In this document: positions 6,624-20,824 of the stretch, one piece after another
Layout of the letters: every line of letters begins with the position of its first letter
How positions within the stretch are numbered: position 1 is the stretch's first letter
From: an uncultured Bacilli bacterium
GTDB lineage: Bacteria > Bacillota_I > Bacilli_A > RF39 > UBA660
Direction: 5' to 3'
Length of the DNA: 32,486 nucleotides
Assembly: GCA_947589435.1 (NCBI GenBank)
Contig: CANQBI010000018.1
Span: 1 to 32,486, forward strand
Made by a program: the position numbers and the translations under genes
Notes under the pieces: generated by a model
Told to the model about the DNA's origin: nothing
Database searches by the model: none
What the model saw: the letters and a program-made list of their open reading frames with translations, nothing else

Positions 6624-6652
6624 TTGACAATTTCTTAATTTCTATGTATATT
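6624..6652 (+). promoter_or_regulatory. Sigma-A-type promoter for abi leader RNA
   Basis: TTGACA (6624-6629), 17-nt spacer, TATATT (6647-6652). Confidence 0.6.
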
Positions 6653-6657
6653 AGTAT

Positions 6658-6733
6658 ATAGAAAAGGACAAGAGGTTAGAAAGAATAATTAATTGAAGAC
6701 ATGGGATAGGTTGTATATCTTATGTCTTTTTCT
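6658..6733 (+). ncRNA. Leader ncRNA upstream of abi gene, ending in a terminator hairpin; candidate abiF-type RNA
   Basis: AAGACATGGGATA-GGTTGTA-TATCTTATGTCTT (13-bp stem with G:U pairs, 6696-6728) then T-rich tract, located between promoter and the SD of the Abi gene. Confidence 0.55.
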
Positions 6734-6750
6734 TTTAGGAGGAATTCATT

Positions 6751-7608
6751 ATAAAAGAAGCTAAAACTAATGAAGAATTAATTAATCACTTAATAACCAA
6801 AGGTGTCAAAGTTAAAAATAAGAAGAAAGCTCTTAAACTATTAGAGAGATATTCTTATTATGCCATTGTAAATACTTATAAAGATGTTTTTAAAGTAAAA
6901 GGGAAATATATTAATGGGGTTACTTTTGAAGAAATATATGCTTTATATGAGTTTGATAAAAATATTAAAGCAATATTTTTAAAATATACTTTAGAGATAG
7001 AATTAATTATTAAAGCTTTATTGGCCAATACGATATCAGAAAAGTATGGAGTAAAGGATTATTTAAAAACAAGTAATTTTGATTCTAAGGCAGATTTAGA
7101 AGAAATTAAAAAGTTAAGAAATAAAATTAATAAAGCAATTAAAAATAATTATGGTAAACACGAAGCAATTACTCATTATAAAGATAAATATGGATTTATT
7201 CCTCCTTTTGTTTTAGTAAAAGTATTAACTTTTGGGGAAATAAGTAAATACTATGGTTTATTAAAACAAAGTGATAGACAAAAGATAAGTAAGTATTTTA
7301 AGTTGTCGGATAAAGAGTTGAGGCAAATGCTTTTGAATATTACTCTTGTGCGCAATTTATGTGCCCACAGTAATAGACTTTATACGTATAGAAGTAGATT
7401 CTTTGTGAATGTGGATAAGCCAAATAGAAATTATCGAGAGTATATAAAATCAACTGATTTATATATGATTACTAAATGTATGGAAATATTATTAGATGCT
7501 AAAAGTTATAATAAATTATTAAAAGATTTTGAAAAAGAAATTAAGAAACTTAGTAAAAAATTAAAATGTATAGATATAAATAAAATTTTAAATATGATGG
7601 GATTTTAA
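6751..7608 (+). CDS. Abi_2/AbiD-AbiF family abortive-infection protein (HEPN), apparent AUA (6751) or AUU (6748) start
   Basis: Frame is open from the stop at 6736: (M)KEAKTNEELINHLITKGVKVKNKKKALKLLERYSYYAIVNTYKDVFK...; HEPN RxxxxH motif RNLCAH; AGGAGG SD at 6737-6742; no ATG/GTG/TTG in frame until 7021. Confidence 0.75.
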   Translation: MKEAKTNEELINHLITKGVKVKNKKKALKLLERYSYYAIVNTYKDVFKVKGKYINGVTFEEIYALYEFDKNIKAIFLKYTLEIELIIKALLANTISEKYGVKDYLKTSNFDSKADLEEIKKLRNKINKAIKNNYGKHEAITHYKDKYGFIPPFVLVKVLTFGEISKYYGLLKQSDRQKISKYFKLSDKELRQMLLNITLVRNLCAHSNRLYTYRSRFFVNVDKPNRNYREYIKSTDLYMITKCMEILLDAKSYNKLLKDFEKEIKKLSKKLKCIDINKILNMMGF

Positions 7609-7692: not shown

Positions 7693-7720
7693 TTGACATT
7701 TTCAATAAATTGGGTATAAT
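7693..7720 (+). promoter_or_regulatory. Promoter of sRNA A1
   Basis: TTGACA-16 nt-TATAAT. Confidence 0.75.
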
Positions 7721-7726
7721 TAAATT

Positions 7727-7799
7727 AATTGGTACTTAGGAAACTTTCGAAGCCTTAAGTCGTCGAATACTTGGCACTTCGGTGCTGGGTATTTTTTTT
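7727..7799 (+). ncRNA. sRNA A1 (tandem paralogous sRNA)
   Basis: Consensus promoter; ACTTAGG-AAACTTTCGAAG-CCTTAAGT stem; terminator ATACTTGGCAC-TTCG-GTGCTGGGTAT + T8. Confidence 0.7.
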
Positions 7800-7830
7800 A
7801 TAAAAAATTTCACAAATGTATCAAATGTGC

Positions 7831-7858
7831 TTGACACATATTATAAAATGAGTATAAT
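7831..7858 (+). promoter_or_regulatory. Promoter of sRNA A2
   Basis: TTGACA-16 nt-TATAAT. Confidence 0.75.
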
Positions 7859-7864
7859 TATAAA

Positions 7865-7940
7865 TGAGCAGTACTTAGGAAACTTTCGAAGCCTTAAGTC
7901 GACCGGGTTACTGGCACTTCGGTGCTGGGCTCTTTTTTTT
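7865..7940 (+). ncRNA. sRNA A2 (tandem paralogous sRNA)
   Basis: Shares GTACTTAGGAAACTTTCGAAGCCTTAAGTCG (31 nt) and TGGCACTTCGGTGCTGGG (18 nt) exactly with A1; T8 tail. Confidence 0.7.
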
Positions 7941-20233: not shown

Positions 20234-20824
20234 GTGAAGGGAGAGAAAAGTCAAAACTTAAAAATTATGCAAACAAAAGAAAAATTAAAAAGTTATACCA
20301 ACATAAAAGAAGCCATTGAAGATTATGTTAAAGAAATTAAAAATAATTTTAAACCATGTGTTGTAATTAGAACTCACAAAAAGGAAGATTATACTAATGA
20401 ATTACAAACGACAATTTATAATAAAGCTAAGGAGGAATTTAAAAAGATTGGTAAAAACATCTTTTTAAATAATGGTGAAGAAATCTATGTATCTAACAGT
20501 GATATTAAAGAAAGCGTTGCTAAGATTGTTAGAAGTGATTATCAAAAGCAATTACTAACAGAACATTTAGAATTGTTTTCTAAATTAGATAAGATAATTG
20601 AAAATGGTAAATTGGTAACTAGTGCTTGTGAAACAAAGAATAGATGGCAAAATCAAAAATGGGATTATTATATAACTCCAATAAAAATTAATGGTCAAAA
20701 ATATATTGTGGAATTTGATACGGCAATTAAGTCTGAGGATAATAAAAAACATTTTCGCATTCAAAGAATATTTAAATTACAAGACATAAAAAAACAAACT
20801 GTTCCGACCGGTATGGTTGAGTAA
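20234..20824 (+). CDS. Hypothetical protein, possibly phage-type nuclease-fold domain (start uncertain: GTG 20234 or downstream ATG)
   Basis: ORF 196 aa; C-terminal WDYYITPIKINGQKYIVEFDTAIKSEDNKKHFRIQRI; weak family recognition. Confidence 0.5.
   Translation: MKGEKSQNLKIMQTKEKLKSYTNIKEAIEDYVKEIKNNFKPCVVIRTHKKEDYTNELQTTIYNKAKEEFKKIGKNIFLNNGEEIYVSNSDIKESVAKIVRSDYQKQLLTEHLELFSKLDKIIENGKLVTSACETKNRWQNQKWDYYITPIKINGQKYIVEFDTAIKSEDNKKHFRIQRIFKLQDIKKQTVPTGMVE

Follow-up and report, generated by a model that had tools for sequence, protein, structure and literature searches.

Organization of the locus

Within the window (i.e., the whole 32,486-nt stretch of DNA analysed, from an uncultured Bacilli bacterium), a gene for a putative toxin of the Abi_2 family is followed on its 3' side by two predicted transcription units of ~72-75 nt in tandem, A1 and A2, and ~70 nt past the A2 terminator a plsC-like acyltransferase gene begins (Table 1). 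Each unit has a perfect TTGACA-16-TATAAT promoter, then the 31-nt block, identical in both, and, after a short linker, an intrinsic terminator that finishes with T8. Every element that the original prediction had described (the two tandem units, their promoters, the 31-nt block, the shared terminator core and the T8 runs) was found in the sequence. The two promoters are the only 12/12 matches on both strands of these 32.5 kb, where ~0.1 would be expected from Markov-1 shuffles of the window, and the 2.1-kb stretch scanned for terminator-like sites holds five of them against 0.4 expected. Pairing at the terminator base, said to be preserved between the units, is indeed kept, but in A2 the pairs are GGGU/GCUC with a 2-nt internal loop, weaker than the 13 bp of A1.

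Table 1. Predicted features of the toxin locus (positions within the window).
Feature	Position	Strand	Details
Toxin gene promoter, TTGACA-17-TATATT	6624..6652	+	11/12; aligned and kept in five relatives of the AUA sub-lineage
Leader terminator/attenuator hairpin	6695..6729	+	-15.7 kcal/mol; kept in G026a, G026b, G032 and L179
Ribosome binding site, AGGAGG	6737..6742	+	8 nt before the AUA codon; conserved
Abi_2 / AbiD-AbiF family HEPN toxin (putative)	6751..7608	+	candidate AUA start 6751-6753; open frame 6754-7605 (284 aa); stop 7606-7608
HEPN RNase motif, R-N-L-C-A-H	7351..7368	+	R200...H205, numbered from the residue that follows the start
A1 promoter, TTGACA-16-TATAAT	7693..7720	+	TTGACA at 7693; TATAAT ends at 7720
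Antitoxin RNA gene A1 (predicted)	7728..7799	+	5' end placed from the promoter; covariance model R1, 53.9 bits
31-nt identical blocks	7732-7762 (A1), 7871-7901 (A2)	+	sequence
A1 antitoxin hairpin (putative)	7734..7760	+	stem 7734-7740 with 7754-7760; loop AAACUUUCGAAGC 7741-7753; covariation
A1 intrinsic terminator	7765..7799	+	T8 at 7792-7799
Terminator core TGGCACTTCGGTGCTGGG, common to both units	7772-7789 (A1), 7912-7929 (A2)	+	sequence
A2 promoter, TTGACA-16-TATAAT	7831..7858	+	TTGACA at 7831; TATAAT ends at 7858
Antitoxin RNA gene A2 (predicted)	7866..7940	+	5' end placed from the promoter; covariance model R1, 52.4 bits
A2 antitoxin hairpin (putative)	7873..7899	+	stem 7873-7879 with 7893-7899; loop 7880-7892; covariation
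A2 intrinsic terminator	7905..7940	+	T8 at 7933-7940

The closeness of the plsC-like gene had raised the alternative that the RNAs regulate it, to which we give next to no probability: both units terminate before plsC, and homologous RNAs adjoin toxin genes with unrelated downstream genes, the homologous loci having no fixed plsC link. Farther along the window, the genes for a PemK/MazF-like toxin (PF02452; 16560-17075, - strand), a Cro/C1-type HTH protein (PF13443; 17499-17735, - strand) and an LPD3 / PHD-like protein (20234-20821, + strand) lie close together and resemble a small patch of mobile or defence genes.

A structured RNA supported by covariation

Folding of the single sequences gives A1 a modest z-score (-2.55) and A2 an unremarkable one (0.36); the convincing support for a structured RNA is comparative. 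The 31-nt block forms a variable 7-bp stem around a 13-nt loop, AAACUUNNGAAGC, which is almost invariant. In an alignment of 17 sequences from relatives, the stem is paired in every sequence (~99-100%), with compensatory changes at all seven pairs, and shifting the stem partners by one column makes the pairing fall from 99% to ~50%. Among 59 distinct sequences from loci selected by their toxin protein (see below), 100% of the stem cells are paired and five of the seven pairs show compensatory changes. The block is thus a real structured RNA. An inner CUU/AAG pairing of the loop is possible, but it hardly varies, so that covariation cannot speak to it. The earlier guess that the conserved loop (AAACTTTCGAAG) is the active region fits this pattern, since substitutions in the stem come as compensating pairs and the loop hardly varies.

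The Rfam 15 search that the original prediction had proposed, run on the window at gathering and permissive thresholds, gave no relevant match to A1 or A2 and identified no known RNA family for them. A covariance model built from the 17-sequence alignment of relatives (R1) yielded 34 matches at 40-55 bits in 38 genomes of the genus, the next score being 22 bits, and it serves to find and annotate such loci in gut Bacilli genomes, where Rfam gives nothing. Weak pattern matches with altered loops (e.g., ATGAAACTTTAGAAACC and AGGAAATTTAAGAAGCC) were dismissed, as they score below 40 bits with R1, and so were four identical matches in one genome (G186, 31.5 bits), whose surrounding sequence has neither the loop nor a toxin.

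A putative AbiF-like HEPN toxin

The protein encoded 5' of the RNA units matches PF07751 (3.4e-43) and is assigned to AbiD by PADLOC (2.8e-57). Its residues R200, N201, A204 and H205 (R-N-x-x-A-H, i.e., an RX4H motif) are invariant in 30 aligned proteins, and the R-N-L-C-A-H of the window aligns with the RNSCCH of PbAbiF, R200/H205 corresponding to PbAbiF R210/H215, which are required for activity (PMC12373285). By sequence, the best match in the PDB is 8VZ6, with 1.5e-31 in a profile search and 8.5e-15 in a single-sequence search, where it is the sole match; the title of this entry is 'PbAbiF dimer bound to ncRNA'. An AlphaFold2 model computed from a 30-sequence alignment (pLDDT 91.8; a single-sequence model with pLDDT 49 was set aside as poor) found the same structure by fold (8vz6_A; E 5.1e-11, prob 1.00, TM 0.80), no other entry reaching an E below 0.001, and the window toxin, as modelled, folds like PbAbiF. 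By analogy with its characterized relatives, it would cut RNA and be toxic.

Association of the RNA with Abi_2 genes

The covariance-model search of relatives and the count of co-occurrence with Abi_2 genes, both suggested beforehand, were carried out starting from the RNA (see below) and, as an independent and stronger test, on 80 loci from named genomes, chosen by toxin-protein alignment alone. R1 gave 163 matches across 79 of these 80 loci, every one on the toxin strand, and at all 75 assessable ordinary-start loci (a count without the three loci that start at AUA and the two truncated at a contig end, and in which the RNA copies of L191, L226, L250 and L251 were completed from the R1 search result) the RNA is found on both sides, one copy 5' and one 3' of the toxin gene. 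The loop of the 5' copy lies about 44-63 nt (mostly 44-56) before codon 1 and that of the 3' copy, in intact toxin frames, about 22-44 nt past the stop codon. These relatives are, by title, uncultured gut MAGs (Bacilli, Clostridia, Tenericutes), many of them from the sample series 'Lapin'. The viral distribution is based on annotated phage records, among which a human-gut phage (MT835668) encodes a 33%-identical toxin flanked by the same RNA pair, with stems of entirely different sequence.

When the search starts from the RNA, 23 of the 34 strong genus matches have an Abi_2 gene, or a fragment of one, at most 1 kb away (profile HMM, 38 genomes), three further ones either adjoin a contig end or are next to the initial or final codons of a toxin, and eight are solo, with no Abi_2 gene or recognisable remnant nearby; elsewhere in the family, nine of the 26 best matches have no detectable Abi_2 gene. 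At ~1.4 Abi_2 genes per 1.2-Mb genome, the linkage expected by chance in the genus is well under one. Homologues lying consistently away from Abi genes had been named beforehand as the pattern that would speak against a connection, and the opposite was seen, both in the loci selected by protein and in the genus matches. From the options first considered (antitoxin, decoy, regulatory or unrelated RNA), this linkage supports an antitoxin or a regulatory RNA of the Abi gene.

The solo copies are counted against an antitoxin role, as is the third RNA copy of the window's own genome (on contig C40), which lies ~340 nt 3' of a second, very different Abi_2 gene, whose protein is divergent (26% identical). 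Solo copies without a detectable toxin occur at L046, L163, L165, L043, L169, L266, L276, L277, L278 and L284, several with intact promoter and terminator, and our guess is that they are leftovers or protective spare antitoxin genes. One further solo hairpin (L041:130-164, G008:C21) sits directly 5' of the ribosome binding site of a putative DUF3800-like protein, as if the leader RNA had moved to another gene. A recurring repeat (TTTTTCGCTTCTGGATGGTGCGAATAATAAATGATTCCAG..CGACAATG) was seen near the RNA copies of L043, L169, L035 and L258.

With around a quarter to a third of the strong matches being solo, some with their own promoter and terminator, and a short repeat element recurring near several copies, the RNA might instead be a free-standing regulatory sRNA or a mobile repeat with other targets that hitch-hikes near Abi_2 genes; this has a very small probability in our judgement, given the fixed spacing and orientation on both gene sides at 75/75 loci and the several solo copies that still adjoin the first codons of a decayed toxin. 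Conversely, two observations are counted for an antitoxin. Toxin genes with stop-interrupted frames (L195, L207, L213, L246) retain both flanking RNAs, which is what an antitoxin that outlives its toxin would lead one to expect, and L179, whose toxin lacks an RNA next to it, comes from a genome with a solo RNA gene elsewhere (see below).

Also counted against an antitoxin role is that not every Abi_2 protein needs such an RNA. PF07751 is present in 37/38 genus genomes and 183/195 family genomes, and a second Abi_2 orthologue of ~312 aa (e.g., G000:C46:895-1461, L060-L083, L084) is nearly universal in both; the R1 hairpin was looked for near it and not found in the copies examined. Its aligned copies share a conserved reading frame on the 3' side, and it has the look of a HEPN protein with a housekeeping role, inherited vertically.

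Leader and downstream copies

The two copies that flank most toxin genes are of different kinds. Leader copies have promoter scores mostly of 9-12 out of 12 and a U-rich run right after the stem (74/74), a separate terminator being absent. In downstream copies the promoters are weaker (8-9), and 62/70 possess a terminator of their own. The antitoxin hairpin of the leader thus probably doubles as attenuator.

Placed directly 5' of the ribosome binding site and ending in a U-run, the leader copies could also be taken for solely cis-acting elements that control transcription or translation of the toxin without acting on the protein, all the more so as RCd22, the RNA of a Clostridioides difficile system discussed below, also terminates transcription ahead of abiF (PMC12373285). 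We consider this very unlikely, because a copy lies past the stop codon in every assessable ordinary-start locus, usually with its own terminator, and because the window copies, being downstream only and behind their own perfect promoters, cannot be cis leaders of the toxin. A type I-like antisense RNA pairing with the toxin mRNA would likewise be a small RNA with a strong promoter at the same locus. It is highly improbable here: RNA and toxin are transcribed off the same strand, the stem drifts by compensatory pairs and does not track the mRNA, and the search for complementarity between the 31-nt core and the toxin mRNA gave no duplex clearly above shuffles, the best one (-19.9 kcal/mol, inside the frame) being equalled in 3/60 of them.

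At two other phage Abi_2 loci the leader position is occupied by hairpins of another sequence, whose loops likewise measure 13 nt: GGUCAGG-AAGCGUACGGCGC-CCUGGCC in L109 (upstream of 1408) and GGUUUCAG-AUACUCGAGAGGA-CUGAGACC in L110 (upstream of 891). They suggest a separate hairpin for every clade of toxins, and are possibly further members of one structural family.

A sub-lineage with a probable AUA start and free-standing RNA genes

The window belongs to a sub-lineage, referred to here as AUA, which further comprises two copies in G026 (G026a and G026b), G032 and L179. The arrangement of RCd22 and of most relatives, with the ncRNA in the toxin leader and a terminator before the toxin, is not known to be obligatory for AbiF-type systems and was not found in the window, whose leader hairpin is unrelated in sequence to the antitoxin hairpin. 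No in-frame ATG, GTG or TTG precedes codon 90 of the window toxin, and codons 1-89 are under purifying selection (dN/dS ~0.06-0.31), which implies that the N-terminus must be translated and makes the AUA codon the best candidate for the start. This codon is kept in 5/5 members, while the preceding one varies (ATT, AAT, ACT).

In this sub-lineage the RNAs lie solely 3' of the toxin: G032 has a single copy, the window two and G026 four, in tandem with ~140-nt spacing. In L179 there is none beside the toxin, the solo RNA gene being on another contig of its genome. Judging by sequence, the sub-lineage can be read as having weakened the expression of the toxin and moved the antitoxin onto strong independent promoters.

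Proposed function

Taken together, it is very probable that A1 and A2 are RNA antitoxins of the adjacent Abi_2 (AbiD/F-type HEPN RNase) toxin, which they would bind and silence; the neutralisation itself is proposed by analogy with the AbiF literature. Each RNA would be a short autonomous transcript with one hairpin, whose variable 7-bp stem presents the conserved 13-nt loop. One hairpin per monomer of the toxin dimer would bind near the RNase site and keep the RNase inactive, as with AbiFr and PbAbiF or RCd22 and AbiFCd. In most relatives, the leader copy, a hairpin plus U-run, would make most transcripts end as antitoxin and let few read on into the toxin, a second antitoxin copy lying 3' of the toxin gene. 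In the window sub-lineage, the leader copy would have been lost, toxin output would be held low by the other attenuator hairpin and the AUA start, and free-standing genes 3' of the toxin, numbering one, two or four, would supply the antitoxin. The RNase would then be freed once the RNA is lost or depleted, for instance by a phage that shuts down host transcription.

Comparison with known systems

RNA antitoxins for AbiF-type toxins are already known. Zilberzwige-Tal et al. (Cell 2025) reportedly described AbiF-AbiFr as a toxin-antitoxin system, with a PbAbiF dimer and its ncRNA (PDB 8VZ6). PbAbiF binds one ncRNA per monomer (PMC12737573). The window shares with it a homologous HEPN toxin (E 1.5e-31 by sequence, TM 0.80), the catalytic RX4H and a small structured ncRNA at the locus, and an Abi_2 protein with the HEPN R-X4-H motif, the PbAbiF fold and a conserved structured ncRNA stably linked to the gene are among the features of AbiF-type systems. 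Growth inhibition by the toxin and its neutralisation through direct binding of the RNA, a further feature, are described in the literature for PbAbiF and AbiFCd. Unlike AbiFr, the window-family RNA is without the RF03085 consensus, has copies on both gene sides and, in the window sub-lineage, forms autonomous tandem units.

The abiF RNA of Rfam (RF03085) is also a hairpin of similar size adjoining Abi_2 genes, but its consensus differs: it has a long unpaired stretch, CAAAUC (CAAAU(C) in AbiF-AbiFr), on the 3' strand, whereas the window-family RNA has a conserved unpaired AAA on the 5' strand. The RF03085 model gave no match in the window, the 38 genus genomes or the relatives at any threshold tried, and did detect the phiC2 positive control. 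To judge from these comparisons, the window-family RNA is not RF03085, and given the different bulge placement, the binding mode of PbAbiF may not carry over to it. The AbiF RNA models of Zilberzwige-Tal et al. (AbiF5_iter3 and diverse_rna_xinsi, named in PMC12804078) may nevertheless already cover the window hairpin.

RCd22, from the C. difficile prophage phi027, terminates transcription before abiF and neutralises AbiFCd in trans by direct binding (PMC12373285). An Abi_2 toxin, a leader RNA that terminates and acts in trans, and two hairpin motifs per system are common ground; in RCd22, however, two RF03085 motifs are found in one upstream transcript (PMC12373285), whereas here the hairpins are on separate predicted transcripts, both downstream in the window. 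Type III systems (ToxIN, CptIN, TenpIN) resemble the family in their RNA antitoxin, their repeat-like multiplicity and, for most relatives, the attenuating terminator before the toxin. Their toxin fold is unrelated (the fold search gave no ToxN-like fold, only PbAbiF having E below 0.001), and the window units would be separately transcribed instead of being processed out of a single array of repeats.

The RNA-guided nuclease Cas13 has been proposed to descend from toxins of the AbiF type that have RNA antitoxins. Against this background, the loci described here offer a compact, strongly conserved hairpin with clear covariation and a geometry unlike that of the known abiF RNA, in a graded set of layouts (a leader copy with another one downstream, downstream copies alone, two to four in tandem, and solo). 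The family makes it testable which part of the hairpin is read by the HEPN dimer, whether neutralisation is adjusted through copy number, and by what route leader RNAs can turn into free-standing arrays. We tentatively propose, at somewhat less than even chances, an undescribed class of RNA antitoxins acting on HEPN RNases of the AbiF type. Its inhibitory unpaired stretch would be on the hairpin strand opposite to that of RF03085, the toxin gene would be flanked by a copy at either end, and in one sub-lineage the leader antitoxin would have been converted into an amplifiable array of free-standing RNA genes together with a conserved AUA start. If true, this would provide natural intermediates between a leader RNA and an RNA array within the protein family from which Cas13 presumably arose.
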